Source: Candidatus Nanohalarchaeota archaeon (GTDB lineage: Archaea; Nanohalarchaeota; Nanosalinia; Nanosalinales; Nanosalinaceae). From it: 36,272 nt of DNA. Below, piece after piece: positions 14-36,026 of this stretch (positions within the stretch are counted from its first letter, which is position 1; every line of letters starts with the position of its first letter). Under the pieces are notes generated by a model. That model was not told where the DNA came from, did not search any database, and saw only the letters and a program-made list of their open reading frames with translations. Where the stretch lies: contig JALDAN010000007.1 in assembly GCA_022729355.1 (NCBI GenBank), forward strand, positions 1-36,272, in the 5' to 3' direction. A program made the position numbers and the translations under genes.

Positions 14-1240
14 GTGAAAACTCCTGAGGATAAAAAAAGCTACAGGCCTAAAATCAAGCTTATGAACCCAAATAAAATCAAGCAGGACTTCCCGGTATTC
101 AGTGAGAAACCTGAACTTGTATATCTTGACAACGCTGCTACCTCTCAAAAGCCTGAAGCAGTGATTAAAGCTGTGGAAGACTTCTACAGAGAGAAAAACT
201 CAAACATCGGGAGAGGCCTTTACGAACTGGCGACGGAGGCTACAAAAGCCTACGAGGAATCACGTGAAACAGCGGCAGACTTCATCGGCGCAGAAAAAGA
301 CGAAATCGTGTTTGTCAGGAACACTACGGAAGCGGAGAATCTGCTGGCACATTCAACTGATTTCGAAGGCGATATCGTTCTAAGCGAAATGGCTCATCAC
401 TCCGAACAGCTCCCATGGAGGAGAAAAGCAGAACAGGAAGAAAAAGAAATAAACTATCTGGAGACAGAGGACGGCGAAATTTCAGTGGAATCAGCGAAAC
501 AGATGATAGATGAAGATACAGGCCTTGTGGCTTTCTCACATATCTCAAACGTATTCGGAGAAAGAAATGAAGTCGAGAAAATAACTGAGATAGCTCACGA
601 GAATGATGCACTCGTGGTGCTGGATGCAGCTCAATCAGCTCCACACAGGCCTCTGGATGTAGATGATCTGAACGTGGATTTTATGTGTTTCTCCGGACAC
701 AAGATGCTAGGGCCTTCAGGAACAGGAGTCCTCTACGGGAAGAAGCATAGACTGGAGGAACTGAGGCCTTATCAGGTCGGTGGCGGAATGATAAAATCCG
801 TGAAGAAAGACGACGTGAAGTACAGTGAAGTACCTCAGAGATTCGAGGCCGGGACACCGAACATCGCAGGAGTAGTAGGCCTCGCAGAGGCAATCTACTA
901 TCTTGAAGAAATAGGTATGGAGAACGTTCATGAACACGGTAAGAGGCTTTCAAACAGGATAATAGAAGACCTCAGACAGATAGAAGGTGTAAAGGTTCTT
1001 TCCAGTCAAGGCGCCAATCTGGTCTCCTTCACATGCAGAGATGTTCATCCGCACGATGTCGCAGAGCTGCTTAATCAGAAAGGAGTAGCTGTGAGAGCAG
1101 GTAATCACTGTGCTCAGCCACAGATGGATTCGCTCGGTATATCAGGGACTACAAGAGCATCACCGTATATCTACAATACAGAAGAAGAGGTTGAGAGATT
1201 GGTGGAAGGTGTTAAGGAGGCCTTAGAGGTGTTCCAGTAA
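14..1240 (+). CDS. sufS: SufS-type cysteine desulfurase
   Basis: A PLP-dependent enzyme that takes sulfur from cysteine for Fe-S cluster assembly in the cytoplasm. Counting from the GTG at 14, the PLP lysine is K230 in SGHKMLGPSGTG. The persulfide cysteine is C366 in RAGNHCAQP, the form seen in SufS/CsdA rather than IscS. The cofactor-stacking histidine pair is near 128-129 (MAHHS), and the DNAATSQKP motif lies near residue 39. An in-frame stop precedes the GTG directly. The ATG at 62 (MNPNKIKQDFPVF) is the more family-like start and gives 392 residues, close to the usual 400. The stop overlaps the sufU start by one base, so the two genes are almost certainly co-transcribed. Confidence 0.93.
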   Translation: MKTPEDKKSYRPKIKLMNPNKIKQDFPVFSEKPELVYLDNAATSQKPEAVIKAVEDFYREKNSNIGRGLYELATEATKAYEESRETAADFIGAEKDEIVFVRNTTEAENLLAHSTDFEGDIVLSEMAHHSEQLPWRRKAEQEEKEINYLETEDGEISVESAKQMIDEDTGLVAFSHISNVFGERNEVEKITEIAHENDALVVLDAAQSAPHRPLDVDDLNVDFMCFSGHKMLGPSGTGVLYGKKHRLEELRPYQVGGGMIKSVKKDDVKYSEVPQRFEAGTPNIAGVVGLAEAIYYLEEIGMENVHEHGKRLSNRIIEDLRQIEGVKVLSSQGANLVSFTCRDVHPHDVAELLNQKGVAVRAGNHCAQPQMDSLGISGTTRASPYIYNTEEEVERLVEGVKEALEVFQ

Positions 1241-1605
1241 TGTATAGAGATGAGATACTTGATCACTACAAGAGGCCTCGGAACGAAGGACGGATAGAAG
1301 ATGGATTAAGTGGAGAGGGAGAGAACGAGAGCTGTGGAGATCATACAGAAGTATTTCTGAAAGTTCTGGAGGGAGAAGTCGATGAGATGAGGCATGAGAC
1401 CGATGGATGTGCGATCTGTACAGCAGCTATATCCATACTTTCAGAGGAGATACAGGAGAGGCCTGTTGATGAAGTAATGAGTCTTGACAGTGACTGGATG
1501 ATCGAAAAACTTGATATCGATATCTCGCCGATGCGTATGAAATGCGCATTACTGGGGCTTGAAACCGTTCAAGAAGCACTGAAACAGGAGAGCGATGAAC
1601 TATGA
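1240..1605 (+). CDS. sufU: SufU/IscU-like Fe-S scaffold or sulfur acceptor
   Basis: A small NifU-N/IscU-fold protein expected to accept sulfur from SufS or to carry a nascent cluster. The N-terminus ILDHYKRPRNEG is typical of the family. Conserved cysteines are visible at C32 (SCGD), C57 and C60 (GCAIC) and C102 (RMKCALLGLETV). The first, the GC and the RMKC cysteines match the three SufU/IscU ligand positions; C60 is extra. At 121 residues it is shorter than Bacillus SufU (about 145). It overlaps sufS by one base and the following NUDIX gene by four (ATGA). Whether it acts as a scaffold or a zinc-dependent sulfurtransferase cannot be decided from sequence. Confidence 0.87.
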   Translation: MYRDEILDHYKRPRNEGRIEDGLSGEGENESCGDHTEVFLKVLEGEVDEMRHETDGCAICTAAISILSEEIQERPVDEVMSLDSDWMIEKLDIDISPMRMKCALLGLETVQEALKQESDEL

Positions 1606-2051
1606 CAGGATTCCACATAGTAGCAGCTAATCTGATCGAGAAAGACGGAGAATATCTTCTTGTTAAGGAGGGTAAGGAGGAAGTCAGAGGCCTCTGGAAC
1701 CTGCCAGCAGGAGGAGTAAAAGAATGTGAAAAAATCAGTTCTACAGCCCGTAGAGAGGCAAAAGAGGAAGCAGGCCTCGAAGTGGAAATAGAAGGGCTTG
1801 TAGGCGTCTTCATGGATGAAAGCGATAGAAGCGAACGAACAGTGATAATCTTTGTATTCCATTCGAGGCCTCAGAGCTACGATGTAGAAGCTCCCGACAA
1901 CGATGAGATACTTGAAGCAGATTTCTTCTCGAAAGAAGAGTTTCAGGATATGAAGATACGGATTCCGTTTCTGGAGGAAGCTGTGAAAAGATACGAGAAC
2001 GGAGAACTGGTTGAAACAGATATAATCCAGGATTTCAGAGGAGAGATATGA
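1602..2051 (+). CDS. NUDIX hydrolase
   Basis: A NUDIX pyrophosphohydrolase of 149 residues, expected to hydrolyse a nucleoside diphosphate linked to another group. The Nudix box (G x5 E x7 R E U x E E x G U) spans about residues 37-59: G37, E43, R51, E52, E55, E56 and G58 are all present, so it should be catalytically competent. One position usually held by a large aliphatic residue is Ala (A53). The substrate cannot be read from the sequence. It is coupled by ATGA overlaps to sufU upstream and to the HD-domain gene downstream. It resembles a second NUDIX protein at 4779-5255 in length and in the placement of its box. Confidence 0.88.
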   Translation: MTGFHIVAANLIEKDGEYLLVKEGKEEVRGLWNLPAGGVKECEKISSTARREAKEEAGLEVEIEGLVGVFMDESDRSERTVIIFVFHSRPQSYDVEAPDNDEILEADFFSKEEFQDMKIRIPFLEEAVKRYENGELVETDIIQDFRGEI

Positions 2052-2689
2052 TGGCGGAAGGAAAGATGAGGGAGATTGAGGAAAGAGCCCGAAGCTTCTT
2101 TGGAGACGTTAATCCAGCGCACGACTGGCATCACGTCCAAAGAGTAACTGAATTAGCTGAGAAACTAGCAGAGGAAGAAGATGCCGATAGAAAAATAGTC
2201 CAGGCCTCTGCCTTACTGCACGATATCGGACGTGGAAAGGAAGATGAAGGCCTCATAGATAATCATGCGGAATGGGGCGCGGAGAAATCAGGAGAGGTAC
2301 TTGAGGAACTGGGCTTCGAGGATAGCTTTATTGAAGCTGTTGAGCACTGTATCCGTTCTCACAGGTATTCAAAGAGGCCTGATCCACGTACTTTAGAGGC
2401 CGAGGTTCTTTCAGATGCTGATAATTTGGATGCTCTCGGGGCTTGCGGTATCGCTCGTACGTTCACTTATGGAGGTGAAAGAGGGAAGATTATCGCTGAT
2501 CCTGATCTTCCAGCGGATGAAGATGAATCTGTTGCTGGAAAGACTTCGCTTAATCATCTGGAAAAGAAGATTCTGAATTTGAAGGATCAAATGTATACTG
2601 ATTCAGGCCTTGAAGTAGCGGAGAAGCGGCATAGATACGTTAATGATTTTGTTGAAAGGATGAAGAAGGAAATGGAAGGCATCAAATAA
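2048..2689 (+). CDS. HD-domain phosphohydrolase
   Basis: A 213-residue metal-dependent phosphohydrolase of the HD superfamily, close in pattern to the YedJ/YpgQ group. Metal-binding signatures in order are H25 and H28-H29 (HDWHH), H58-D59 (ALLHDIGR), H73, H105 and D123/D125 (LSDADNLDALG). The family hydrolyses nucleotides or other phosphate esters; the substrate here is unknown. The first ATG (2048) overlaps the NUDIX stop; a second ATG follows at once. It is the last gene of the sufS-sufU-NUDIX-HD cluster. Pairing NUDIX with HD suggests nucleotide-pool cleaning, which is inference only. Confidence 0.85.
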   Translation: MMAEGKMREIEERARSFFGDVNPAHDWHHVQRVTELAEKLAEEEDADRKIVQASALLHDIGRGKEDEGLIDNHAEWGAEKSGEVLEELGFEDSFIEAVEHCIRSHRYSKRPDPRTLEAEVLSDADNLDALGACGIARTFTYGGERGKIIADPDLPADEDESVAGKTSLNHLEKKILNLKDQMYTDSGLEVAEKRHRYVNDFVERMKKEMEGIK

Positions 2690-2794: not shown

Positions 2795-2798
2795 AGAT

Positions 2799-7820: not shown

Positions 7821-7857
7821 AGGCCTCCAACGTAGGAGGCCTTTCTTTTTTTATTTT
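7821..7857 (+). terminator. hairpin terminator from two AGGCCT copies
   Basis: AGGCCTCC at 7821-7828 and GGAGGCCT at 7835-7842 pair perfectly over 8 bp around a 6-base loop. A T-rich tract (TTCTTTTTTTATTTT) follows. Each arm contains an AGGCCT, so the iterated motif itself forms the stem. Confidence 0.75.
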
Positions 7858-14824: not shown

Positions 14825-15526
14825 ATGAAGTTAGACAAGAGCATCGCAGTACTTGCGATGGTTGCTTCACTAATCCTAGCCACAACAGCAGTTGCGGCTC
14901 AGGACAATCAGCCTACACAGTCATCAGTCAGCGACGTAGACACACTTGATCAGTACTTCGCTGAATCTGACGATGAAGTAGAGGTATACGGTGGAAATGT
15001 TACTCAGGCCAATCTTGACTCTGAGCAGTCCACCGATAACTGGGCTGGTATCTATGGTAACGCATCCGGTAACCTGGTTTTAGGAGCCGGTGAAGAAGGA
15101 GACGTCCTTTTCGACTGGGATGCCTCCGCAGATTATGTCTTCGCGTCAAGTGACGACGTTGTATGGTCAAACATCACAAACGGAACAGCAGAAACAGTGA
15201 ACAACTTCTACGGTCTAGAAGTTGAAGATAGCGACAGCGCTGAAGATACCTTCAACGCTGAAGATAACGCAACTGTAGATGTTGCACGCGAAGAATACGA
15301 AGGTGACACAGCACTAACCAACGGAGACGAAGACGAGGAATGGTCAACAGTTGTCCTTGAAGACAACTCAAGTGACATAGACACAACACATGTTCCTGTA
15401 TTCTCAGGAATCGTTGGTGAAGGTGACTCAGCATTCAACGGAGACGAAGCTGATTATCAGATGATTCTTCCGGCTGAAGACGACACAGAACCAAGATCCT
15501 TCGACATGTACCTAGAGCTAAGCTAA
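14825..15526 (+). CDS. secreted acidic surface protein, NWAG family
   Basis: A 233-residue secreted protein with a signal peptide (VLAMVASLILATTAVAAQ) and a very acidic mature part. TDNWAGIYGNASGNLVLG near 70 and the C-terminal DYQMILPAEDD pattern recur in the next gene (SSNWAGVSGEV and NYQFMLPQIDD), so the two are distant paralogues. I associate the NWAG-x-YGN pattern with surface proteins of other archaea, but cannot verify this here. The strong TATA box, the double upstream repeat, even codon use and absence of AGGCCT suggest a highly expressed gene, possibly a major envelope component. No enzymatic residues are seen and there are no cysteines. Confidence 0.75.
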   Translation: MKLDKSIAVLAMVASLILATTAVAAQDNQPTQSSVSDVDTLDQYFAESDDEVEVYGGNVTQANLDSEQSTDNWAGIYGNASGNLVLGAGEEGDVLFDWDASADYVFASSDDVVWSNITNGTAETVNNFYGLEVEDSDSAEDTFNAEDNATVDVAREEYEGDTALTNGDEDEEWSTVVLEDNSSDIDTTHVPVFSGIVGEGDSAFNGDEADYQMILPAEDDTEPRSFDMYLELS

Positions 15527-15556
15527 AGCAACCATCAGTAACAATCTTTACTTATT

Positions 15557-15574
15557 CCCTCTTTTTTTCTTTCT
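15557..15574 (+). terminator. T-tract terminator
   Basis: CCCTCTTTTTTTCTTTCT lies about 30 bp after the stop of the 14825 gene. It should separate this gene from the large surface genes that follow. Confidence 0.45.
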
Positions 15575-15662
15575 ATCAGAAAGTGGAAGGCCTCCATCGT
15601 GTTACTCTAACAGTCTTTAAAATCACGTTTAACGCAATATAATAACAAAGAGAGGCCTAGGT

Positions 15663-17270
15663 ATGCGCGACTTGGATATCAATTTTGAACGTTTGGAGCT
15701 GGATGCTGAGAAAGCTGTTCTTGTAACAGGATTAGCGACTGTTCTACTAGGCCTTGTTATTGCTGGCAGTATAGGCTTGGAAGCAGGCACAGTTGTGCAG
15801 GCAGTTCTTTCCACAACTTCGGTATCAAGTAACTGGGCTGGTGTTTCAGGAGAAGTTACTGAAGTTCAGGAGCAGACAGCGATGCCTGTAGATTTTTTCT
15901 TTGTAGATGATTCTAGGACAGGATCAGTTCATACAGTTGATTTAGATGGAAAGGTGGATGGATCGCATTTCTTTGCCGCCCTGCCTTTCCATACAGATAA
16001 CTTTGAACGAGAAAAACTTGAGTCTATCTCTCTCAGTGATTTGGAGGCTGGAGGCCTTTTCAGTCAAGAAGATTTCCCTATTTTCTATCCTAACGCTTCA
16101 AGCTACGACAGTGTGAACGACAATCCTGAGAATACTTTTGAGGAGACTGAGACTATCAGAGTGTTGAACAGGGAGTTAGAGGCTGCGAAGACAGAGTTCA
16201 ATGGAGGGCTGGAGTACTATTTATTAGCCTATGACACAGGTGATGGAACTCAGCCGCTATTCATTAACCATATAGATGAGTACGGCGAGTGCTACGATGG
16301 AAATGAATGCAATTACCAGTTCATGCTCCCGCAGATAGATGACGATTACAGCTTCTATCAGTTATCCGAAAATAATCCTGTGGACGTGACAGTGTTGATT
16401 GATGGAGAGGAGACCACAAGCTTCCCTTTCACCGGGAGGCCTTACAACCTTACAGTTCAGACTGTGGCGATCTTCCAGGACTTTGAACCAGCGGAGACCG
16501 AGATACGGGTGACGGAGACAGAGGGTAATAATATCTTTACACCTGCGATAAGCGGAGACTACAGCTCGGACGCTCAGACAATAACTGAGACAGATGAAGG
16601 AGAGGCCTCTCTGATGTACAGTCCTACAGAATACAATTCTCCGGAGAACTATAATTTGAGTGTTGATGTGTATAATGATGGAGAGGCCTTTCAGAGTGTT
16701 CCTTTGAGTGTTGAGAATGATAATATCGAGTTCACTGATGCTGGGCCTGTTGAGAAAGGATTTGATGAGTTTGAGAATGAGTACAGGCGTGGCGTAGATC
16801 GTTTGAGGCCTATAGCTAACTGTATGTTTTCACAGGTTAATTCCGAGGAGGCTTACAGGCTTGAAGCTACTGTTAATGAGAGTTATGAAGTGGTTCGTGG
16901 TGTGCCTTATGTTGTTGATGTTGATGAGGCCTCTTTCTTCAGTTTGGAGGAGAGAGGTAGTCACTTGGTGATGAGTCCTGGGCGTATTGAGGATTCTATT
17001 CATCTTGAGTCAGGTGGAAGTCCGTATTCTGCCTCTGATAGTGTTGTTTTCACTCCGACTCTCTCAAGTAATGAGGATGATGATCTGTCGGTGAGTCTTC
17101 TGGATTCCCAAGGTGATTTATTAGGCGAAACGAATCTTTCAGTAAGGGATGCAACATGCGGAGAAGTAACGGACGGCGATCTTGTTGAACCGCCAGAACT
17201 TACAGATTTCAAGAGAAGGGTGAACAACATCAGGCCTGTCCTGAACAGCCTGTTCGTGGCAGGAAGCTAA
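15663..17270 (+). CDS. large anchored surface protein, NWAG family
   Basis: A 535-residue protein with one N-terminal membrane helix (about 19-40, AVLVTGLATVLLGLVIAGSI) and an acidic outside part. SSNWAGVSGEV near 55 and NYQFMLPQIDDDYSFYQL near 220 match the smaller protein at 14825. Residues from about 260 on look like beta-sandwich repeats (VTVLIDGEETTSFPFTGRPY, then a section on EASLMYSPTEYNSPENYNLS), typical of Ig-like surface modules. Paired Cys (GECYDGNEC) may form a disulfide. A TATA-like ATATAATAA about 20-28 bp before the ATG points to its own promoter. It is followed within 30 bp by another surface gene. Confidence 0.7.
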   Translation: MRDLDINFERLELDAEKAVLVTGLATVLLGLVIAGSIGLEAGTVVQAVLSTTSVSSNWAGVSGEVTEVQEQTAMPVDFFFVDDSRTGSVHTVDLDGKVDGSHFFAALPFHTDNFEREKLESISLSDLEAGGLFSQEDFPIFYPNASSYDSVNDNPENTFEETETIRVLNRELEAAKTEFNGGLEYYLLAYDTGDGTQPLFINHIDEYGECYDGNECNYQFMLPQIDDDYSFYQLSENNPVDVTVLIDGEETTSFPFTGRPYNLTVQTVAIFQDFEPAETEIRVTETEGNNIFTPAISGDYSSDAQTITETDEGEASLMYSPTEYNSPENYNLSVDVYNDGEAFQSVPLSVENDNIEFTDAGPVEKGFDEFENEYRRGVDRLRPIANCMFSQVNSEEAYRLEATVNESYEVVRGVPYVVDVDEASFFSLEERGSHLVMSPGRIEDSIHLESGGSPYSASDSVVFTPTLSSNEDDDLSVSLLDSQGDLLGETNLSVRDATCGEVTDGDLVEPPELTDFKRRVNNIRPVLNSLFVAGS

Positions 17271-17300
17271 AACAAAAAAAAGTGAGAGGATGAAAAATAG

Positions 17301-19016
17301 ATGAATCGAAAACACGTTGCACTGGCTTTAGCATCTTCCCTGATCTTTACGCCTTTAGCGGCAGCGGAGCTAGAGGCCTATATTGTGGAGTCAGGACCTG
17401 AAGAAGTAGAGGAAATGATTTACACATGGGGAGATCCGGACACTACTCCTTACTACCAGGACGCACAGTCCTATCCTGATGTAGGCCTCATGATTTGCAG
17501 GAGCGATGGCGACGTACAACAGGACTACTACGTCGGAGTAGAGTATAGTCTGGGAGGTGAGTCACAGCTCGTCAGTTACGGAACAGACAATACACTGGAA
17601 CCTGCAGACGATCCCGTAACTTTTGAAGGAGGTCTTTGCCGTATGACTTCGATTGGAGGCCTGACGATTTCACCTTCGGAGATTTCCGGGACTCCTGAGA
17701 CAAAGATTGCTGCTTTCCCTGGAGAGGCCTCTGCATTAGTTGCTGAACAGGTTGACGGATCAGATGCTGAACGAGTTGAGACAGGAAGCGTTATGTCAGG
17801 AGGGTACTCTGGCAGCATGAGCTATGATCACGAGTCAAACAGTATCAGTCTTGATGTAAGCAGTATATCGGTTGATTCAAATATCGGTACGGAGACGTTC
17901 AGTCCGGGAACTGACGGCAGAGGTGTAAGTGAGTCTAGGCCTCTTATCGTCGGTGTGTGCGGAGATTCTTCCGGTGATTCCTGTAACGGATTGGTTGAGA
18001 AGAAGACTGACTCTTCTTTCCCTGAATCCTTCGGATTTGATGTAGATGAGGACGAAGTGAATGATCAGAATGTTTACACTCGTTATGGTTTGGCGAACAG
18101 CAAAAATATTGACAGCATCGATATCGGTGCAGATGCCAGTGTTCAAGGCCTTTCAGTAGACAGTAGCACTGTTTTCTATTCTCAGACGCAAGGAGTCAGT
18201 TTCTCAATCAGTAACAGCGGGAATGTACCTATAACGAGTGAGTTCGAGGTGGAGGCCTCTATCACAGGTAACGGCGAAGTCGTGGATAGCAGAAGCTTTA
18301 CTGTCAGTGATGGATTAGAGCCGGGGGAGAGTGAGAGCTTTAGTTATGACTGGGAGGCCTTTGATGAGTCAGGTAGTTATACTGTGGAGGTTACTGCGGA
18401 TACTGATAATGATCTCGCCGAGTTGAATGAGTTAAGTAGTTCTACTCGTTCATTCAGCCTTGAGACTGTTGCTTTTCCGGAAGTGATTGTTGATGGTGTT
18501 GAGAAATCAGTTGAGGATACAGAGTTTGCTTCTGCTGGTTCTCCTTACAACTTTACACTGGTGATGCAGGACTCCGATAACAATACACTGGATAACTCGG
18601 AGATTACTATAACTGAGGAGGATGGAATGGATACGCTGGTGCCTCATCAACGGCTTGAGGAGGACTCCTTTACGGATATGATGAAGACTTCGACATTCAC
18701 GACTGACGAAAACGGGACTGCAAGCATAACATTCACACCGACCGGCAACGTTTTGCTTGCGGATCGATACAATGAAACAGATATACAGGATAATATAGAC
18801 TACTCACTGCAGTTCACAGGAACCCACAGTGGCGATGACCTGACATTTATCGTGGATGAAGAGCCTACCAGCACTTACCCGCTTGAAGTAGAAAACCCTG
18901 GCAGTCTGGATGAAAAAGAGGCCTCCTCAGATCTTCCTAACCTTGATGGATACGTCAAGGCAGTGATGAACGGAGTATACACCGTATTCACAGAGTTCTG
19001 GGGCGCGGTAACATGA
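17301..19016 (+). CDS. secreted surface protein with CARDB-like domain
   Basis: A 571-residue secreted protein with a signal peptide (HVALALASSLIFTPLAAAE). The N-terminal third is unrecognised and has paired cysteines (MICRSDGD, GGLCRM, VGVCGDSSGDSCNG). Residues of about 280-385 fit a CARDB adhesion-like beta-sandwich (VSFSISNSGNVPITSEFEVE, then GLEPGESESFSYDWEAF, then YTVEVTADTDNDLAELNE). A second Ig-like part follows at about 395-520, with the ENGTASITFTPTG strand. The C-terminal amphipathic YVKAVMNGVYTVFTEFWGAV resembles the end of the preceding protein (FKRRVNNIRPVLNSLFV) and may be a shared anchoring tail. Its stop overlaps the next start (ATGA), so the genes form one operon. Confidence 0.75.
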   Translation: MNRKHVALALASSLIFTPLAAAELEAYIVESGPEEVEEMIYTWGDPDTTPYYQDAQSYPDVGLMICRSDGDVQQDYYVGVEYSLGGESQLVSYGTDNTLEPADDPVTFEGGLCRMTSIGGLTISPSEISGTPETKIAAFPGEASALVAEQVDGSDAERVETGSVMSGGYSGSMSYDHESNSISLDVSSISVDSNIGTETFSPGTDGRGVSESRPLIVGVCGDSSGDSCNGLVEKKTDSSFPESFGFDVDEDEVNDQNVYTRYGLANSKNIDSIDIGADASVQGLSVDSSTVFYSQTQGVSFSISNSGNVPITSEFEVEASITGNGEVVDSRSFTVSDGLEPGESESFSYDWEAFDESGSYTVEVTADTDNDLAELNELSSSTRSFSLETVAFPEVIVDGVEKSVEDTEFASAGSPYNFTLVMQDSDNNTLDNSEITITEEDGMDTLVPHQRLEEDSFTDMMKTSTFTTDENGTASITFTPTGNVLLADRYNETDIQDNIDYSLQFTGTHSGDDLTFIVDEEPTSTYPLEVENPGSLDEKEASSDLPNLDGYVKAVMNGVYTVFTEFWGAVT

Positions 19017-21364
19017 AAAAAACAGGCCTCATCCTCGCCATAACGATAATACTTACAGGGGCTGCAGCAGGCCTCGAAGTATCTTTCGTGGATGAAGAAG
19101 AAAATCTTCAGGGATCTGAGTTCGATGCTATCGATCCCGGAGACTTCTACAGTGATTTTCCTGAAGAGTTCGATAGGCCTGATGAGATAGGAAGTTACTC
19201 ATTCACTGACAGCTCTCTAGTCACTCCAAATCTTTTATTACAGTACGAGGCTGAAGAGGATCTTTCAGGTGAAGAAATGGAGATTTACTACAGTTCCCTG
19301 AGTGGAGATCTGAGGAGGCCTGTCTCTACTTTTCCTGCTGTGCTTGAAGGAAGTAGTGGTGTAGCTGAAATAGAGATATCCAGCTTTGAAGCCCTTTATC
19401 CCGGCAAAATCTTCGCTGAAACAGAAGGAGAGTTCGTGGAAGTTGAAGAGGGTCTTTTTCCCGGTAACTACAGTTTGAGGCCTGATGTCTCTTTTTCTGA
19501 AGGTAAAAGTTTCGTAGAGGTTGAGGCTGCTTTCGATTCTTCGGGAGGTGAGATTCATGCTGGCCGTGATCTGAGTCAGGATTTGCTTCTTTCTGTTGAG
19601 CGTGGTGAAGATGTGGTGGCTGAAGATGATGCACGTCTTGGAGGTGTTGCAGAGCTCGACACGGTACTGGAGCAGGGAGATACTATCTACGTGAACAGTA
19701 TCCCGGTAATGGATGTACGTGAAGCTGCAGCATGCCAGATCATCAATGAATCCGATTCTTACTTCCTGATGAATGAGAGCTTTTTTAATATAGATCCTGA
19801 AGGGCCTGGAGGTGGAGAAGATTCCTGTATAAAAATTGAAGATGTGGAAAATACAGTAATAGACTTCGGAGATAACACTCTGAACGGGCATGGAAACTTC
19901 TCCAATACAGAGGCTTGTGGACTGAGAATCGAAGACTCAAATAATATAGAAGTCTCAAGCCCAAGAATACAGGAGTTCAGCAGAGGCCTATGTGTAGAAA
20001 ACTCGTCCGAGGTTATGGTTGAAGGAGACTCTCTGCAAGAGAACAGGATTGGGGCTTACAGCAACGATTCGGAGGCCTCTCTCACAGACTTGGTAATGAA
20101 TAACGAGTTCAGAGAGTTTGTGGGAGAGCAGTCATCGTCTTCAGTCCTTACAGATATCTCCTTTACTTCGGCAGAGGCCTCGGTTGAAGGAGTTGATCTT
20201 GAGGTTGATAGTGTTGAGAGTCCTCCTTCAGATCCTGAGGATACAGAGAGCACTGGTCAGTATCTTGAAGTTGAGGGTGAAGCCGGTTCACTGCTTGAGA
20301 ATCTGAGCTTCAATTATGAAGAAGAGCCTGACGACATATATCTTTTCAACGGAGGAAGTACTCAGTTAGAGGCCTCTTCCGATAGTGAGTCGATTTTTAC
20401 AGAAAATGAGTTAACTGATTTTGGAGTCTTTGGAACGTTTATTCGTTCAGAGGAGGAAGATGACGAAGATGATGAGGAAGACGATGATACAGGTAATGGA
20501 GGAGGTGCTGGTGGTGCGCCGCCTGAAGATCCGCCTCCTGAACCTGGTCCTCCTGATCCTCCGCCAGGACCCCCAACCGGAGTTCCTGGACTTGATGATG
20601 AAGATATCCCGGAAGTAGAATTAGTGTTGCATGATGAGAGAGTAGAGGTTGATCAGGGTAGAGCTTTTGAGGCAGGTTTTGATGTAGAAGTCAATGGCAA
20701 CGTATCAGCCCCTAATGTAGATGTAGAGGCCTTTCCGGAAAGAGATGGATGGGATACTTCAGGAGATACTTTATCTGAAATACTGCCTGGTGAGACAGGT
20801 AGTGGCTCTGTATTAGTTGATATTTTTCAGGGCGAGATGATTGGAGAGTACGATGTTCGTTTGGAGGCCTCTACTGTGATTAATGATACCGAGGTTTCTC
20901 TGGATAATGAGAGTTTGGCTGTGGATGTAGTTGCGAGAGATGAGGTACGTGATTTATATGTGCTGGAGGCTCCTCATGAAATCAATATTACTGAGGATAC
21001 TGCGAGGAGATTAAGTTTTGACTTGGCTAATGCTGGGGAGTTCCGGCTTGAAAATGTAACTGTTGAAGGACGTGATCTTGATAGATGTCTTCCTGAGATC
21101 AGGGGCAGCTGGAGTTTCGATAAAGACGTGAGGGAGACTTTTAATTATACAGCAATTAGTGGAGAGTCTGGAGAAGTTTGTGAAGGAGCTTTTGTCTTCA
21201 GTTCAGAGGAGGAAGATTTCTTGACTCTTGTGCCTGCCGAAGTACAGGTTGTGGAGAAAAGTATAGCTGCAAAACTTACCAACAATATACTGCCGATAAT
21301 AGTGATGATTTGGACAGTAATCACTGCACACAGAATCAAGAGGCGATACTACGATGACGAATGA
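19013..21364 (+). CDS. large anchored surface protein, beta-helix and stalk
   Basis: A 783-residue surface protein: signal peptide (MKKTGLILAITIILTGAAAG), unknown N-terminal region, and a section at about 275-370 with parallel beta-helix rungs (TVIDFGDNTLNGHG, CGLRIEDSNNIEVSSPRI, GLCVENSSEVMVEGDSL). An Asp/Glu run then leads into a Gly/Pro-rich stalk near 480-535. A NEW3/CARDB-like beta-sandwich follows, and then a C-terminal membrane helix (ILPIIVMIWTVITAHRI) with a basic tail. The layout suggests a protein held on the cell surface with its head projecting. It overlaps both neighbouring genes, so it belongs to the 17301-21626 operon. Surface binding is an inference from domain type. Confidence 0.75.
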   Translation: MKKTGLILAITIILTGAAAGLEVSFVDEEENLQGSEFDAIDPGDFYSDFPEEFDRPDEIGSYSFTDSSLVTPNLLLQYEAEEDLSGEEMEIYYSSLSGDLRRPVSTFPAVLEGSSGVAEIEISSFEALYPGKIFAETEGEFVEVEEGLFPGNYSLRPDVSFSEGKSFVEVEAAFDSSGGEIHAGRDLSQDLLLSVERGEDVVAEDDARLGGVAELDTVLEQGDTIYVNSIPVMDVREAAACQIINESDSYFLMNESFFNIDPEGPGGGEDSCIKIEDVENTVIDFGDNTLNGHGNFSNTEACGLRIEDSNNIEVSSPRIQEFSRGLCVENSSEVMVEGDSLQENRIGAYSNDSEASLTDLVMNNEFREFVGEQSSSSVLTDISFTSAEASVEGVDLEVDSVESPPSDPEDTESTGQYLEVEGEAGSLLENLSFNYEEEPDDIYLFNGGSTQLEASSDSESIFTENELTDFGVFGTFIRSEEEDDEDDEEDDDTGNGGGAGGAPPEDPPPEPGPPDPPPGPPTGVPGLDDEDIPEVELVLHDERVEVDQGRAFEAGFDVEVNGNVSAPNVDVEAFPERDGWDTSGDTLSEILPGETGSGSVLVDIFQGEMIGEYDVRLEASTVINDTEVSLDNESLAVDVVARDEVRDLYVLEAPHEINITEDTARRLSFDLANAGEFRLENVTVEGRDLDRCLPEIRGSWSFDKDVRETFNYTAISGESGEVCEGAFVFSSEEEDFLTLVPAEVQVVEKSIAAKLTNNILPIIVMIWTVITAHRIKRRYYDDE

Positions 21365-21626
21365 AAACAAAACAACTCTGCATGAAAAAGTAATACAGGA
21401 TGTGGAAGAGGTAGCTCAAAAGATAGAGTCACGGTTCCAGCATGGAGGCCAGACAGAGAAAAATATACAGGAATTTCAGCAGAACATAGAAGAAAGAGAG
21501 GCCTCAAAAGAAGGAAGCAACTGGATGGAGGAACTTGATCCGGTTACCCTTGGCATCTTGGTAGTTGAGATAGCTCTTGTAACTTATCTTATTCTAGCTC
21601 TAGCAGGATATTTACCGATGTTCTAA
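21354..21626 (+). CDS. small single-TM protein of the surface operon
   Basis: A 90-residue protein with a charged, helical N-terminal part (about 60 residues, coiled-coil-like) and a single C-terminal membrane helix (VTLGILVVEIALVTYLILALAGYLPMF). It would sit with its soluble part on the cytoplasmic side as a tail-anchored protein, or be a small subunit for its neighbour. It overlaps the large surface gene by 11 bases, so translation is coupled. No family recognised. Confidence 0.7.
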   Translation: MTNENKTTLHEKVIQDVEEVAQKIESRFQHGGQTEKNIQEFQQNIEEREASKEGSNWMEELDPVTLGILVVEIALVTYLILALAGYLPMF

Positions 21627-21695
21627 TGGTAGAAATAGAATAAGAGAAAAATATGTGGAGGCCTTCTTCTCCCATACGGCTTTTTTGAAGATTAG

Positions 21696-23381
21696 TTATT
21701 TCAGGCCTCTGTACTTCTGCTTATCTCTTCTCCTTTTCAGGTAATAGAGTAAAAGCAGGAGTAGTAGCAGGATAATCAGTATTGGCCCATACTGTACTAT
21801 TATCACTAGGACTCCTCCCTCACGGACTTCCATATCTGTCTGCTCAAATAAGTAAAGATCCTGTGCTGTATCAACAGTGTCTCCTGCAGTAACTGCTAGT
21901 GAAAGAGGATTATTTTCCTCAAGATCCTCTTCAGACATATAAGCTGCTACCGTAAGGGTTTCAGAATCGCCTGGTTCGATTTCTGCTACTTCATCAGTTA
22001 CAGGTTGGACCGTCCGATCAAGCAAGTTAAGATCAAGCATGTGGGCGCCAGTGTAAACATTTTCATCGCCTTCATTTGCAACTTCTACATGGATTTCCTC
22101 TGCGTTTTCATGATAATAGAAGCTTTCAAGCTCTATCTCAGAGGCCTCCCAACTATCAACTGTCTCTACTTGATAACTGCGAGAGCTTATACCTGAGGCT
22201 CCTTCATATCCGAACGATACCTCTGCAGTTTGAGGATCAAAGTCCATACTTGAATTGAAATGTAAAGTTGTTTTTCTGTCAGGCCTTGTTACTATTTCCT
22301 GATCCTCTGATATAATTTCTTCTCCTCCATTTCCACTAAGAGAGATTGCAGAAAATGTTATTGGTGTTTCAATGGTTCCTTCATTCTCAAAAACTATCTC
22401 AACAGTCTCAGTATCCTCTGCATACTTAACTGAATCAACTGATATATCTCTTATTATTGGCTCTCCCGGGATTTGCTTAACAGGGAAAGTTGAATCAAGA
22501 CCTTCTGCTCCTGTAAATCTTCTTCCGAACTTAGCTATTACTGTAGTGTTTTCACTTATTCTGTCTTGTAGAGTATCCCCAAAATCAACATTTTCTCCTC
22601 CTATAACCTCGACTGCTTCAAAGTCTAAATCATTAATAAGATTAGCAGTAGCATCAACATCTCTGGCTAAAATCACAGGATCACCTTTTTTCATAAAACC
22701 TCTCTCAAGATAACTATCTCCTGCAACTATCACAGACTCTCTATCATGATTCTCTGTTACTTCTCTCACCAATCCTCTGTTATTTTGCTCTCTTGAATCT
22801 TCTGACAACACTCTGTGATCATGATTGTCTGGGAGTGTTCTCCAAGGCTGTTCTAAAAATTCTCCGTAGAAAATTACTTCTTCATCATCTAAATCTGATT
22901 CAAGGAATTCTTGAGTGTCTTCTCCATCATAATAAATAGGCCAGTAATCTGCGTTCACAACTTGAGGAAAAACCGAAATAATATCCATTGTGAAATCTGG
23001 CTGTATGACTACAATACCTTCAACATCATCTTGATGTTCTTCATAGAATTCATACTGTGACTCCTGCCAGTCTAGAGGGGAAGAATCTACATCCTGTAGC
23101 CCTTCATTCTGAAGAAAATTATCAAAGTTTTCCCATACTGCCGTATCCGGGTCTTCCGGTTCGTAAACTGTATGACTTCTATTATCAAGCAACATTTCCG
23201 AAATTATTTGTCCCTCTCCCAAACTAGTGACAGCGTGAACCTCTTCATCAGCGAAATGGCTTTTAGCTATAACAATAGAATTATCCTTCCATTCCTCAGA
23301 GTTAGTTACCAGATCAGCTGATGCAAAACCTGATACTCCTATTACAAATATACCAAGAATTACTAGACCCCTAATCCTCAT
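21696..23381 (-). CDS. anchored surface protein, CWB2-like head
   Basis: A 561-residue protein with a signal peptide (LVILGIFVIGVSGFASA), a large outside part and a C-terminal membrane helix (ILIILLLLLLLLYYLKRRR) with a basic tail. The part at about 215-295 (RESVIVAGDSYLERGF, DPVILARDVDATANLIN, AVEVIGGENVDF, TTVIAKFGRRFTG) follows the order of the cell-wall-binding CWB2 repeat, in which IVGG and R-x-x-G-x-x-R motifs recur. The middle contains CARDB-like beta-sandwiches (IVFENEGTIETPITF, HVEVANEGDENV). No AGGCCT occurs in the N-terminal two thirds. It converges on the surface operon and is followed upstream by a DUF2070 gene. Confidence 0.65.
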   Translation of the reverse strand: MRIRGLVILGIFVIGVSGFASADLVTNSEEWKDNSIVIAKSHFADEEVHAVTSLGEGQIISEMLLDNRSHTVYEPEDPDTAVWENFDNFLQNEGLQDVDSSPLDWQESQYEFYEEHQDDVEGIVVIQPDFTMDIISVFPQVVNADYWPIYYDGEDTQEFLESDLDDEEVIFYGEFLEQPWRTLPDNHDHRVLSEDSREQNNRGLVREVTENHDRESVIVAGDSYLERGFMKKGDPVILARDVDATANLINDLDFEAVEVIGGENVDFGDTLQDRISENTTVIAKFGRRFTGAEGLDSTFPVKQIPGEPIIRDISVDSVKYAEDTETVEIVFENEGTIETPITFSAISLSGNGGEEIISEDQEIVTRPDRKTTLHFNSSMDFDPQTAEVSFGYEGASGISSRSYQVETVDSWEASEIELESFYYHENAEEIHVEVANEGDENVYTGAHMLDLNLLDRTVQPVTDEVAEIEPGDSETLTVAAYMSEEDLEENNPLSLAVTAGDTVDTAQDLYLFEQTDMEVREGGVLVIIVQYGPILIILLLLLLLLYYLKRRRDKQKYRGLK

Positions 23382-23548
23382 GTAAACCTATAGACCTCTA
23401 CAGATTTATAATGTATAGCATCATTTTTACAATTAATTCCTATCTAACCAGAACCCTACTACCTCAACAACAATTCTTTCACTATAAACCAACATCTTCG
23501 ACAAATAATCAGTATCAACAACTAACTTTTCAGTCAGTAGACCCTACC
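23382..23548. other. 167-bp A/T-rich intergenic gap
   Basis: I see no gene, tRNA or repeat here. It separates two minus-strand genes and is A/T- and C-rich with no AGGCCT. It must hold the promoter of the 21696-23381 gene, but no box stands out. Confidence 0.4.
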
Positions 23549-25195
23549 TTAAAGCAGCCAGAAGACAAGAAGCAGATATAGAAACAGTAGTGCGATCGGG
23601 AGTAGACGGACAAGTATATTTATGGAATGTATTATGCCGAAATAATCATCGCAGAGAAACTGCATCTCCTGTGCTTTAGCGACGGAAAAACCCGTAGAGG
23701 CCTCAGATACATCCTTCTCTGCATTTTCTATCACTTGTCTCATTTCTTTTTCATCTACGTGCTTTTTACTCGCTAAGTCGTGTACGCTGGCATGTGTGTC
23801 AGTTGTAAAAAGTAAAGCATGATCGAAATGATTTCCAAGATCTTCTCTAAGATTTAAAATATCTTGAGAGGTATCATTTCCTTCAAAACCAAAGATTACT
23901 GTTCTCTGGCCTCCTGTCTCCTCTACCATAGCCATAGAAGGATTTTCGTCTGCTGATATATCGATTCCTGCTCTATAATTGTAGAGTTCCTGATCGTCCA
24001 GTTCATCTATGAAATCTAGGAGGCTTTCACGGGCCTTTTCTGCCTTTATTGTCCCGTAACGCATTTCCTTACCGTTGCTTGATTTTGTCTGATTGTGCAG
24101 ATCGATAAGAAGCACATCCTCTTTATCTATAACTTCCTGAAATATTGCAGCATCATAGTCATCAAAGCCCTCGAACTCCATATATACAATCTTCTGTTCG
24201 CCGAGTCTGCGGCCATAGAAACAGCAGAAGCCATAATCCTTCTTGATTAAATGTGAGGCCTTTGAGGATTTATCGACTTCTTCAGAGGCCTCAAGTATTT
24301 TACTTGAGTCTCCAGGATCTGAAGGATCCATCTGATGGCATGAGGGAACATGGAGGAAGAATCCTTCTCCATCCTCGTTCAGTTCTTCTATGATATCTGT
24401 CGTGATTTTTCCTCCTCCAAATCCCTGTATAGGACCTGGATGCACCCACGGCGCGAGGAATGTTTTCAGGCCTGATCTGTTCTCTACCTTCAGTGTCTGA
24501 ACGTCAGGCCTGACTTTTCGTCCGAGATCAAGCTTCTCCTGTCTGTTCTGTAGAAGTGCCGTTGCTAGACCGAAGATTGAAATTTCAGGTGTGTTAGAGC
24601 CTATCAGGAACTCTGTCAAGTAAAATGCAGTAAGTAATGCAAGGCCTGTCGCCAATACCACAAGCAAGTTGAATAGATAAGCTGTAAGCGTTATCTGGAA
24701 GTAGCTTCCAAGTATCAGATGAAAACCAGCAAGTATCAAAGCCGGTTGAAGTATACTCAGTAAGGAAATCCTCTTTATATACTGAGGTCCGTTTGAAAGC
24801 ACCAGTATAAAGAAGTTGGAAGCATAAAGAGTAGATACGCCTAACCAGATTATATTCCAGGCCACTTCAAAGCTGCCTGCCAACGATATGAGGACTGTAA
24901 ACAGAAAGATTATCAACTGATTCACCACTGAAAGAAAGTACCCCCATTTACGTGGATACTCGGGCAAAGAAAAGCTGTAGGCCTCCGACGCCAGTACAGA
25001 CGGCAAAATAAAGAGGAAAAGACCTATCAGAGGTGCCAGAAGCGGCTCGTAAGCTATATCTATTCTATCTGTGAAAAGCAGGAATATTATCAATCCATAG
25101 AGGAGGCCTGTAGCTACGACTAGCTTGAAGGTATCTCTAAGCCTTGGAAGGCGGAATATTACTTTCCGGAAAATATCAAGATTGTCCGCAGCCAT
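23549..25195 (-). CDS. DUF2070 family membrane protein
   Basis: A 548-residue membrane protein of the archaeal DUF2070 family, whose function is not known. Six or so helices fill the first 215 residues, one or two more lie at the C-terminus (about 520-548), and a large soluble domain lies between. The soluble domain has the family's conserved stretches FLAPWVHPGPIQGFGGGKIT and HVPSCHQMDPSDP, rich in His, Asp and Gly and suggestive of metal binding, plus DLHNQTKSS, GRRLGEQ and FTTDTHASVHD. It lies between a glycosyltransferase and a CWB2-like surface protein, all on the minus strand, which hints at a part in building the envelope. That is inference. Confidence 0.82.
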   Translation of the reverse strand: MAADNLDIFRKVIFRLPRLRDTFKLVVATGLLYGLIIFLLFTDRIDIAYEPLLAPLIGLFLFILPSVLASEAYSFSLPEYPRKWGYFLSVVNQLIIFLFTVLISLAGSFEVAWNIIWLGVSTLYASNFFILVLSNGPQYIKRISLLSILQPALILAGFHLILGSYFQITLTAYLFNLLVVLATGLALLTAFYLTEFLIGSNTPEISIFGLATALLQNRQEKLDLGRKVRPDVQTLKVENRSGLKTFLAPWVHPGPIQGFGGGKITTDIIEELNEDGEGFFLHVPSCHQMDPSDPGDSSKILEASEEVDKSSKASHLIKKDYGFCCFYGRRLGEQKIVYMEFEGFDDYDAAIFQEVIDKEDVLLIDLHNQTKSSNGKEMRYGTIKAEKARESLLDFIDELDDQELYNYRAGIDISADENPSMAMVEETGGQRTVIFGFEGNDTSQDILNLREDLGNHFDHALLFTTDTHASVHDLASKKHVDEKEMRQVIENAEKDVSEASTGFSVAKAQEMQFLCDDYFGIIHSINILVRLLPIALLFLYLLLVFWLL

Positions 25196-31985: not shown

Positions 31986-33905
31986 ATGATTGAAGTAGAA
32001 CTACCTGATGGCTCAATTTTAGAAGTAGAAGAAAACTCTACAGTAGAAGATGTCGCCTACGAGATAGGAACAGGCCTTGGAGACGATACCAAAGCCGGAA
32101 AGATAAACGGCGAACTCGTAGCCAAAGAAGAAACAGTATCAGACGGCGACGAAATAGAAATTGTGACACCTCAAAGCGATGAATACACAGACGTACTGAG
32201 ACATAGCGCCGCCCACGTATTCGCACAGGCATTGCAGAGACTGCATCCTGAAGCAAAACTGACAATCGGGCCTTGGACAGATGAAGGATTCTACTACGAT
32301 ATCGATGGCGTGGAACTTGAACAGTCAGACTTCGAGGAAATCGAAGAGGAAATGCAGGAGATCGTAGAGGAAGACCTTGATATTGAGAGGATGATTCTTC
32401 CTCGTGAAGAGGCAGAGGACTTCTACGCAGATAACGAATACAAACAGGAGATTCTGGAGGAAGAGGCCTCTGGAGGAGATCAGATCAGCTTCTACAGGCA
32501 GGGAGAATTCAAGGACTTATGTAAAGGACCTCACGTAGACTCTACAGGAGAAGTTGAGGCCTTCAAGCTTCTGGAGATCGCCGGTGCCTACTGGAGAGGC
32601 GATGAAGAGAACGAGATGTTGACAAGAGTTTACGGAACAGCCTTCTCCTCAGAAAAAGAATTAGAGGAATTCATTGAGAAGAGGAAAGAGGCTGAGAAAA
32701 GAGACCACAGAAGGATAGGCCAGGAAATGGACCTGTTCTCTGTACCAGAGCACGCACCGGGAGCACCGCATTATCATAGAGCCGGTATGATTGTCAGGAG
32801 AGAACTGGAGGAATACATCAGAGAGAAGAATGCTGAGCTTGGCTATGAGGAAGTCTGGACTCCTGAACTTAACAAGGCAGAGCTCTGGAAAAAGACAGGG
32901 CACTACGAGGCTTTCAAAAAAGAGGGCGAAATGTTTTCCTGGGAGCAAGATGATATAGAGTACGGCCTGAAGCCTATGAACTGTGCTAATCACAGCCACA
33001 TCTTCGACTCAGGAACAAGAAGCTACAAAGACCTGCCAATCAAGCTTTCAGAGTTCGGAACAGTCAACAGAAACGAACAATCAGGAGAGCTTTCAGGCCT
33101 TCTAAGAGTCCGAGTAATGACTCAGGATGACGGCCATGCATACATCAGAAAGGACCAGATCGAAGAAGAGATCAAGGCCCACTTAGAGAAAATTATCGAG
33201 ATGTACGATGAGTTCGGATTCAACGTCAACTTCATCATGGAGACGAAGCCTCCGAAAGCTCAAGGCCCAGACGCATTATGGGATGAAGCAGAGGCCTCCC
33301 TGAAGACTGCGATGGACGAAGTCGTTGGCGACTACGAGGTGAAGCCCGAGGAAGGTGCATTCTATGGGCCTAAAATCGGTGTAGAGGTGGAAGATGCAAT
33401 CGGTAGAGAGTGGCAGTTGGGAACAGTGCAGCTTGACTTCGTGATCCCTCGGAACTACGGACTCAAGTATCAGGGAGAAGACAACGAAGAACACTACCCA
33501 GTCATGATCCACAGGGCAATCCTTGGATCTATTGAGAGATTCATGGGAGTAATGATCGAACACTTCGCAGGGGAATTCCCAACATGGCTGGCACCAGAAC
33601 AGGTCAGAATCCTGCCGGTCAGCGACGACAACCTGGCCTATGCAGAAGAACTGAAAGAGGAACTCTCAGATTTCAGAGTCGAGATTGAGGAGAGAAGCTG
33701 GACTGTAGGAAAGAAGATTCAGGCCGCTCACGACGACAGAGTGCCTTACATGATAATAGTCGGAGATGACGAAGAAGAGGTCTCTGAAATCTCTGTCAGA
33801 GACAGATTCGAGAACGAGGACAGAGGATTCACGGTCAAAGAATTCAGGAAGCATCTAGAAACTGAAGTCGGAGAGAAAAGGCTCAAACCAGACTTCTTCG
33901 ACTAA
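31986..33905 (+). CDS. thrS: threonyl-tRNA synthetase, bacterial type
   Basis: A class II aminoacyl-tRNA synthetase that attaches threonine to tRNA-Thr. Domains in order: TGS at 1-60, editing domain at about 65-225 with HSAAH (H73, H77) and CKGPHVD, catalytic core with MNCANH (zinc Cys), GLLRVR (motif 2), and GSIERFMGVMIEH (motif 3), then the anticodon-binding domain from about 540. This is the bacterial and haloarchaeal form with the N2 editing domain. Most other archaea carry a DTD-like editing domain instead. The length of 639 is normal. A T-tract follows the stop. Confidence 0.95.
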   Translation: MIEVELPDGSILEVEENSTVEDVAYEIGTGLGDDTKAGKINGELVAKEETVSDGDEIEIVTPQSDEYTDVLRHSAAHVFAQALQRLHPEAKLTIGPWTDEGFYYDIDGVELEQSDFEEIEEEMQEIVEEDLDIERMILPREEAEDFYADNEYKQEILEEEASGGDQISFYRQGEFKDLCKGPHVDSTGEVEAFKLLEIAGAYWRGDEENEMLTRVYGTAFSSEKELEEFIEKRKEAEKRDHRRIGQEMDLFSVPEHAPGAPHYHRAGMIVRRELEEYIREKNAELGYEEVWTPELNKAELWKKTGHYEAFKKEGEMFSWEQDDIEYGLKPMNCANHSHIFDSGTRSYKDLPIKLSEFGTVNRNEQSGELSGLLRVRVMTQDDGHAYIRKDQIEEEIKAHLEKIIEMYDEFGFNVNFIMETKPPKAQGPDALWDEAEASLKTAMDEVVGDYEVKPEEGAFYGPKIGVEVEDAIGREWQLGTVQLDFVIPRNYGLKYQGEDNEEHYPVMIHRAILGSIERFMGVMIEHFAGEFPTWLAPEQVRILPVSDDNLAYAEELKEELSDFRVEIEERSWTVGKKIQAAHDDRVPYMIIVGDDEEEVSEISVRDRFENEDRGFTVKEFRKHLETEVGEKRLKPDFFD

Positions 33906-33907
33906 AT

Positions 33908-33931: not shown

Positions 33932-33975
33932 TAAATCCCAGTATTCTTTTATGTCTTGGCAGTTTTAACTGCTTT

Positions 33976-34392: not shown

Positions 34393-34431
34393 TAGGTTGA
34401 GAATAAAAAACTCGACTCAAATTTACTTATC

Positions 34432-35538
34432 ATGGTAGAGGAAAGAATAGAGGAGTTCGCTGATGTAATTGTAGAAAAAGCAGCAGAAGTGGAGGAGGGA
34501 GATAATGTTTATCTGATGGCTAAATCGCTTCAGGCTCTTCCACTGTTCGAGGAAGTTCGGAGACAGATAATAAAGAAAGGAGCCTATCCTTTCGAGCATC
34601 TCCTGTATGACACCGTTTCTGGGGAAAGAATTGATCATGACTGGATGAAGCATGCGTCGGAAGATCAGCTTGAACATTTTTCAGAAGTAAAGATGAACGA
34701 GATGGAGAACATGGATGCTGTGATCAAGATTAACGGCTCCGATAATCATAAGGAACTTGCAACTATCGATCCTGACAGTATTTCAGACTGGAGATCCACT
34801 ACACGCGATATACTGAACAAAAGAGTGGAGAAGAAATGGGTGCTCGCTGCCTATCCTACCACAGGCCTTGCACAGCAGTCAGATATGCCTACACAGGAAT
34901 TTGAGGATTTCGCGATTGATGCAGTTGTGGAAACTGACTGGGAGGCCTTGGCTGAAAAGAATCAGGAGATTAAAGAAGTATTTGACGGCGGCGATAAAGT
35001 CAGGATAGTCGATGATACCACAGATGTCGAGATAAGTATCGAGGGTCGTGAAGGAGTTACAGCAGATGGAAATAGAAATCTTCCTGATGGAGAGGTTTTT
35101 TACGCTCCTGTAAAAGATGAAATTGAAGGACATATCGAGTTCTCCTATCCTGTGACAGCTGAAGGCAATGAGATAAGTGGCATCAGACTGGAGTTTGAGG
35201 AAGGTCGTATAGTCGATTTCTCAGCCGAGAAAAACGAGGAATTCCTGAAGAAGATGATAGAAACAGATGAAGGATCACATTACATCGGAGAGCTCGGAAT
35301 CGGCACTAACAGACAGATTGACCGCTACATCAAGTACACACTTTTCGATGAAAAAATCGGCGGAACAATCCACATGGCAATCGGAAAGGCCTACGAGGAC
35401 TGTATGCCTGAAGGAGAGGAGCCGAACGAATCCAGCATCCATTGGGACATAGTCAAGGATCTGCGTGAGAGAGCAGGTGGTGGAAAGATATTTGTTGACG
35501 GAGAACTAGTCCAGGAAAACGGAGAATGGGTGTATTAA
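34432..35538 (+). CDS. M29-family metallo-aminopeptidase
   Basis: A 368-residue aminopeptidase of the thermophilic M29 family (AmpS, aminopeptidase T), which removes N-terminal residues using two metal ions. Family motifs: NLPDGEVFYAPVKDEIEGHI near 215-235 with the first metal-site Glu residues, the GELGIGTN near 283, GGTIHMAIGKAYEDC near 305, and SSIHWDIVKDLR near 330 with the His/Asp ligands. It begins 39 bp after the preceding gene and could be read from the same transcript. Confidence 0.9.
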   Translation: MVEERIEEFADVIVEKAAEVEEGDNVYLMAKSLQALPLFEEVRRQIIKKGAYPFEHLLYDTVSGERIDHDWMKHASEDQLEHFSEVKMNEMENMDAVIKINGSDNHKELATIDPDSISDWRSTTRDILNKRVEKKWVLAAYPTTGLAQQSDMPTQEFEDFAIDAVVETDWEALAEKNQEIKEVFDGGDKVRIVDDTTDVEISIEGREGVTADGNRNLPDGEVFYAPVKDEIEGHIEFSYPVTAEGNEISGIRLEFEEGRIVDFSAEKNEEFLKKMIETDEGSHYIGELGIGTNRQIDRYIKYTLFDEKIGGTIHMAIGKAYEDCMPEGEEPNESSIHWDIVKDLRERAGGGKIFVDGELVQENGEWVY

Positions 35539-35556
35539 CAAACACCTACATCTCTA

Positions 35557-35952
35557 TTATTCAACTTCTATATCATATATTTCTGCCCATTCACTGCAAG
35601 TTCGATCCGCAACCTGCACATCCTCCATCGAATCTTCTTCTACATAATCGATGACTCCGCCTTCACATGAATGAACAATATGATCATACTCACTGCACTG
35701 ATCAGCAGAATCATAGAACGTATCATTCCTTTCAAATCCTACACAGCTATCTCCTAGAGGAAGTCCGTGACAGATATTTACTTCTTCCGAGCAAACTCCT
35801 GTGGCCTCAACAGTTCTGATCCCATACCCGAAGTATAGGCCTATTGTAAGTACGACTACGGCCGCGATAAGTATTATTAGCGGCTTTGACAGCTCCTGTA
35901 CAAGTTCGTGTTCTATTGTATCTTTTATCCGGGCGAGATCTGACTTATCCAC
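35557..35952 (-). CDS. single-TM protein with Cys-rich outside domain
   Basis: A 131-residue protein with one membrane helix (PLIILIAAVVVLTIGLYFGYG, about 24-44) and a C-terminal domain with six cysteines (GVCSEE, NICHG, DSCVG, QCSEY, HSCEG, RTCSEW), enough for three disulfides. The family is unknown. Being cysteine-rich outside the cell, it is a candidate client for the DsbB pathway at 12483. It converges on the M29 gene with an 18-bp gap. Confidence 0.65.
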   Translation of the reverse strand: MDKSDLARIKDTIEHELVQELSKPLIILIAAVVVLTIGLYFGYGIRTVEATGVCSEEVNICHGLPLGDSCVGFERNDTFYDSADQCSEYDHIVHSCEGGVIDYVEEDSMEDVQVADRTCSEWAEIYDIEVE

Positions 35953-36026
35953 TGTAAAATTATGTTGGATTTGGAGGCCTATTAATTCTTCCGCTCAAGG
36001 GTGAGGCCTGGTAACTGGTCAGGGTT

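Follow-up and report, generated by a model that had tools for sequence, protein, structure and literature searches.

The hexamer AGGCCT is a genome-wide, DNA-level and near-saturating highly iterated palindrome (HIP) in some members of a single nanohaloarchaeal family. We describe it in a 36,272-bp stretch of DNA from a Candidatus Nanohalarchaeota archaeon (contig JALDAN010000007.1, assembly GCA_022729355.1; the whole stretch is hereafter the window), in the genome from which the window comes (the source genome) and in related genomes. The source genome, with 48 contigs and 886,350 bp, contains 3,601 copies of AGGCCT, or one per 246 bp, compared to 459 copies of the reversed control hexamer. 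The excess is thus not limited to the window, which is what the original prediction, made from the window alone, had proposed to check by a genome-wide count. That prediction knew of no such motif in nanohaloarchaea, and our literature search likewise found no earlier description of this palindrome in the group. Its near-saturation, its patchiness among relatives, the missing HIP1 machinery and the independence of its sites are new here.

Within the window, AGGCCT occurs exactly 163 times (positions 44–36009, no strand assigned; first copy at 44–49, last at 36004–36009), with a mean spacing of 222 bp and a median of 160 bp. Base composition predicts 6.6 copies, so that the hexamer is 24.6-fold over-represented, and 163 of the 231 GGCC tetramers (70.6%) lie in the AGGCCT context. 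These values agree with the estimates given earlier, namely about 163 copies at one per 220 bp, about seven expected, an excess of at least 20-fold and about 70% of GGCC flanked by A and T. A second-order Markov model predicts 28 copies (z = 25). The maximal-order Markov model predicts 153; however, it reaches this value only because the motif itself generates AGGCC and GGCCT as sub-words, and it is therefore an unfair null.

The copies in the window lie in plus-strand genes (91 in 21.9 kb), in minus-strand genes (54 in 12.0 kb) and between genes (17), and all three codon phases are represented, as had been noted from the sequence. The enrichment over synonymous shuffles is 7.1-, 7.6- and 7.2-fold in codon phases 0, 1 and 2, and it is strongest between genes, where the density is 6.5 per kb compared to an expected 0.12 per kb. 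As the phases are equal and the intergenic enrichment is highest, we conclude that the process acts on DNA and not on protein, which bears out the earlier view that neither codon preference nor a single protein motif explains the copies. With an excess that is genome-wide and independent of frame, AGGCCT is a HIP in the descriptive sense. Furthermore, the half-sites show no consistent strand skew across 20 bins, in line with the argument from the palindrome against a polar signal of the Chi or KOPS kind.

To describe the distribution of AGGCCT, we scored 19 genomes of the family, from 11 genera, as motif-rich or motif-poor. The relatives of the source genome include Nanohaloarchaea archaeon SG9 (G003), M3_22 (G016), B1-Br10_U2g29 (G018) and Nanosalina J07AB43, which agrees with the nanohaloarchaeal lineage named in the original prediction. 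Seven genomes in four genera are motif-rich, with, for instance, 4,489 copies in SG9, 2,466 in G010 and 1,803 in M3_22. Three genomes of a single genus show graded counts, with 762 copies in about 800 kb in the weakly motif-rich G012, 2,095 in about 600 kb in G017 and 1,481 in about 500 kb in G018; the gradient perhaps reflects a genome that is gaining or losing the trait. Two relatives from the genus of the source genome, one of them J07AB43, show no enrichment (325 and 292 copies), and the motif-poor genomes of other genera contain 55–338 copies.

The positions of the copies are conserved between motif-rich genomes: 25–55% of the alignable sites are shared, compared to about 10% for control hexamers, at 65–68% nucleotide identity. 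Such a comparison of positions had also been proposed with the prediction. Of 30 window sites in genes aligned to J07AB43, only two are shared, whereas 30–47% are shared with motif-rich genomes. Where the amino acids are identical, the odds ratio for a site being filled in both genomes is 5–6, which may reflect either shared ancestry or shared local constraint.

AGGCCT occupies most of the positions that could carry it. We defined permissive contexts as every amino-acid context that allows the hexamer (Arg-Pro, as well as X-Ala-Z and X-Gly-Leu with suitable codons). The filled fraction is 73% in the source genome (162 kb surveyed), 75% in SG9, 51% in M3_22 and 3% in the motif-poor G011 (973,463 bp), which we take to be Nanohalobium constans LC1Nh; sequence coverage in the genome comparisons was 60% for G011 and 18% for G000. 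For individual peptides of the source genome, the fill is 83% (RP), 95% (EAF) and 100% (KAS). Codon usage elsewhere predicts a fill of 7.5% in SG9, corresponding to 374 copies compared to the 3,714 observed, and the excess in this genome reaches z = 132. Fill in SG9 is 0.70–0.82 in every class of gene conservation, lineage-specific genes included. Synonyms that differ from the motif at one or two positions are nearly all depleted, by transition and transversion alike; the exceptions are AGGCCC, which is not depleted, and AGGTCT, which is less depleted than the others. The depletion of almost all synonyms suggests a process that favours the whole site and not the reversal of one lesion type.

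In the source genome and in SG9, the observed-to-expected ratio of GGCC is 0.4 without an A or T flank of the motif, about 1.3–1.5 with one flank and about 20 with both, whereas the corresponding steps in M3_22 are 0.8, 2.75 and 9.2. The odds ratio between half-sites is 0.99 in M3_22 (independent), compared to 4.65 in SG9 and 3.86 in the source genome (cooperative). Outside the hexamer there are modest preferences relative to the AGG background, in intergenic DNA too: A at position −1 in SG9, G at −1 in the source genome and T at −4 in the source genome, SG9 and M3_22. This pattern of flanks and half-sites is what would be expected of a dimeric protein with drifting specificity.

The sites are filled independently of their neighbours. 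The density of site pairs at 100–400 bp in SG9 is 0.87–1.16 of random, and in coding DNA at 100–200 bp it is 1.05 and 1.01 of random, so that neither test shows interference at 100–400 bp. Both fragment redundancy, as for an uptake sequence, and a saturating mismatch-repair ratchet predict interference at longer range, and both are therefore disfavoured. Helical (10-bp) periodicity of the sites was not above noise. At short range, genic copies less than 50 bp apart are avoided: fill in SG9 is 0.55 at 12–30 bp compared to 0.84 at 100–300 bp (p about 1e-38, stratified by peptide). In noncoding DNA, the shortage of pairs is even across 6–200 bp without a short-range dip, and probably stems from long stretches with few sites, for example RNA genes. 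We discarded a protein footprint as the cause of the short-range interference since the effect is absent in noncoding DNA. The avoidance, being confined to coding DNA, thus points to a cost in genes and not to a part of the driver; plausibly, a pair of palindromes folds into a hairpin in the mRNA.

Neither a cognate methylase nor the MutS of MutS/MutL-dependent mismatch repair, as presumed for the cyanobacterial, methyltransferase-linked HIP, was found with AGGCCT. PF00145, PF02086 and full-length PF01555 have no match in the source genome (90% complete), SG9, M3_22, G012, G017 or G018; among the motif-rich genomes, full PF01555 occurs only in G010, and PF00145 and PF02086 in none. Eco57I-type enzymes are stop-broken in SG9, short in G010 and intact in motif-poor genomes. 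The SG9 copy is a Type IIG restriction-modification gene at 489427–493579 with an in-frame stop, and an intact relative of 1,363 aa lies at 532479–536570 in G011. A six-frame motif search combined with Pfam in the closed M3_22 genome detected seven class-I S-adenosylmethionine (SAM) methyltransferases, none of a DNA-methylase family; one is a protein-isoaspartate methylase, and the others are of RNA type or small and generic. Hence no canonical DNA methyltransferase common to the motif-rich genomes was found, and M3_22 has no recognised one, which speaks against the proposed solitary-methylase target. MutS (PF00488) and Vsr are each absent from all 19 family genomes, whereas NucS/EndoMS is present in all 19. 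A role as a repair or recombination signal or as a nucleoid site, also raised earlier, may apply, but repair through MutS or Vsr is excluded by the absence of their genes.

We consider biased site-specific correction or gene conversion by an AGGCCT-binding dimeric protein the best explanation of these sequence patterns, with a rough probability of 0.38. A sequence-specific protein would bind AGGCCT as a dimer, as the palindrome and the mild preferences at −1 and −4 suggest, and events that make or break a site, be they mutations or heteroduplexes, would tend to end with AGGCCT. The recognising factor may steer mismatch processing to the site-bearing strand in a background with NucS/EndoMS only, and AGGCCT would then build up at almost every tolerated position. 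Pairs of genic copies less than about 50 bp apart would be counter-selected, plausibly through a 6-bp mRNA hairpin formed by two copies. Three points weigh against this explanation. No gene that tracks AGGCCT was found in the contrast of gene content described below, and the best candidate tested, an HhH-GPD protein, is present in both genome groups. NucS is also present in all motif-poor relatives and thus cannot be the determinant alone. Lastly, equilibrium sequence data cannot tell biased correction from weak selection at each site. A wider claim is tentative: an archaeal DNA protein may exert a drive that is site-autonomous and independent of methylase and MutS, turning almost all positions where the change is tolerated into its own palindromic recognition site in a NucS/EndoMS-only background, and comparable hexamers may have arisen independently in the haloarchaeal hosts.

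The HhH-GPD candidate was rejected as the determinant. This OGG-like protein of 174 aa (G000:C19:5595-6119; SG9 855679–856200) has a weak Pfam match and is about 70% identical across genera, and motif-rich genomes are not grouped in its tree. A contrast of gene content between two closed motif-rich genomes and the partial G011 sequence gave about 60 candidates, mostly ordinary.

Weak per-site selection is the main and close rival of biased correction and predicts nearly the same pattern, although we regard it as rather unlikely. Here, AGGCCT would bind an abundant chromosomal protein (a nucleoid protein, a segregation factor or a global regulator), and each site would bring a small gain in fitness. 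This would account for a palindrome whose mild flank preferences extend to noncoding DNA, for uniformity over the genome and the gene classes, and for the independent accumulation of sites. However, two congeneric relatives and most genera lack the motif, which is odd for a core chromosomal function, and neighbouring sites show neither redundancy nor phasing at 10 bp above noise.

We find it improbable that an unrecognised or host-supplied methyltransferase, together with methyl-directed repair, enriches AGGCCT. All cyanobacterial genomes with high-frequency palindromes carry a putative cognate methylase, and GGCC has the GC centre required by the published model (PMC4390886); methylation between cells is conceivable, as export of a nanohaloarchaeal methylase to the host has been proposed (PMC11001535). 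The gene searches described above weigh against this explanation, and so does the missing interference, since a ratchet that saturates would produce it within the repair range.

We find it highly improbable that AGGCCT serves in DNA uptake or self-recognition and has spread through biased uptake and recombination; an uptake signal had been listed among the possible roles. The motif is short, dense and lineage-specific with conserved positions, and brines are rich in free DNA. Nevertheless, neither the spacing nor the redundancy that would be expected of uptake sequences at the size of recombining fragments was observed: the sites lie one per 246 bp without redundancy at 100–400 bp, and a DprA signature was not found in the called genes.

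Very-short-patch (VSP) repair of deaminated 5-methylcytosine shifts motif counts in E. coli, but its probability here is close to negligible, as Vsr is missing throughout the family, the motif-rich genomes have no 5-methylcytosine methylase (PF00145) and synonyms that differ only by transversions are depleted too. An origin in codon preference, dipeptide preference or protein repeats is refuted: the dipeptides RP, GL and EA are moderately over-used in motif-rich genomes, yet the three phases are equally enriched over synonymous shuffles with a higher intergenic density, and true AGGCCT protein repeats (viral contigs L253, L258 and L283) are confined to one phase. None of the viral contigs with dense AGGCCT looks nanohaloarchaeal, and several, including these three, are protein repeats.

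When comparing AGGCCT to known systems, we find that it works like a HIP but lacks the methylase and MutS that we searched for; the HIP1-like label of the original prediction thus holds for its behaviour and not for a methyltransferase. The cyanobacterial HIP1 is GCGATCGC, and alternate HIPs exist as well (Elhai 2015, PMC4390886). Like these, AGGCCT is a short GC-centred palindrome in genome-wide excess, in coding and noncoding DNA, and patchy among relatives; its one-off variants in M3_22 concentrate at the outer positions, as for HIP1. In contrast to HIP1, it is a hexamer in an archaeal DPANN symbiont and occurs once per 246 bp compared to about once per kb, in genomes where no cognate methylase and no MutS were found, and without the saturation within repair range of the published mismatch-repair ratchet (PMC4390886). 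Uptake sequences of Neisseria and Pasteurellaceae are likewise short motifs accumulated by drive, with positions conserved between relatives. However, they occur about once per kb with a spacing set by fragments (about 1.1–1.5 kb in Neisseria, matching conversion fragments; PMC2397512), whereas AGGCCT is 4–5 times denser and site-autonomous. VSP repair in E. coli shows that a repair system can make a motif more frequent through its specificity, but it acts on one lesion type and needs Vsr, which the AGGCCT genomes lack.

Similar hexamers occur in several Halobacteria, the clade of the hosts. They were seen around an anchor gene (L208, L212, L228 and L237; whole genomes G047, G051, G055 and G057), that of threonyl-tRNA synthetase (window 31986–33905, plus strand), which was used for retrieving relatives and for comparing the region between motif-rich and motif-poor genomes. 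CGATCG occurs 16,962 times in about 3.4 Mb of SHRA6 (one per 200 bp) and 11,565 times in about 3.3 Mb of Natronocalculus amylovorans (one per 285 bp), and 153 times in Haloferax profundi. Like AGGCCT, this palindrome is enriched in all codon phases and between genes in SHRA6 and Natronocalculus; unlike AGGCCT, the host hexamers have other sequences and belong to another phylum. GTCGAC is probably a genome-wide hexamer in Halohasta, where intergenic DNA and two codon phases show enrichment, whereas the excess in phase 0 is mostly due to codon usage.

For decades HIP1 has lacked an explanation, and the leading model for it depends on methylases and MutS/MutL repair. The genomes described here carry an equally extreme palindrome without MutS or a detected cognate methylase, and at about 1 Mb they keep the gene search small. 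The patchiness, with rich and poor species in one genus and graded values in another, amounts to a natural experiment by which the determinant could be found, and tests of modification and mutation bias are feasible in cultivated nanohaloarchaea. Furthermore, the influence of a single hexamer on codon use, dipeptide use and k-mer binning has to be reckoned with in these archaea.

Some regions of motif-rich genomes are nearly free of AGGCCT. Such islands lie at 781216–791057 and 388172–400623 in M3_22 and at 890529–896064, 806193–808061 and 934970–937159 in SG9, where two island genes fill 0/6 and 0/7 permissive contexts. The islands are probably recent arrivals, and AGGCCT content could serve to date horizontal transfer. 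At the other extreme from the motif-rich genomes, GGCC itself is avoided in several motif-poor relatives, namely G011 (L148–L176; 385 copies compared to 1,268 expected), MAG_AT22 (L223; 9 compared to 50) and G009 (L034). TGCA is nearly absent from five loci of G006 (L004–L006, L029, L036), which fits the GDGCHC methylation system reported in Nanohalococcus occultus SVXNc (PMC10266531).

Lastly, the window contains a run of genes at 14825–23381 that have no orthologues among the SG9, M3_22 and partial G011 sequences compared; the products of several are predicted to be secreted or surface-like. AGGCCT extends across most of this run, with zero copies in the gene at 14825–15526. The widest gap between adjacent copies in the window (22281–23698) measures 1,417 bp from start to start. 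The 17 intergenic copies, none assigned to a strand, start at 2732 (2732–2737), 6015, 6511, 6621, 7224, 7821, 7837, 9829, 12089, 14746, 15588, 15653, 21659, 30650, 31918, 35975 and 36004, and the nearest neighbours in the window are the two at 7821 and 7837 (7821–7842), which are 16 bp apart.

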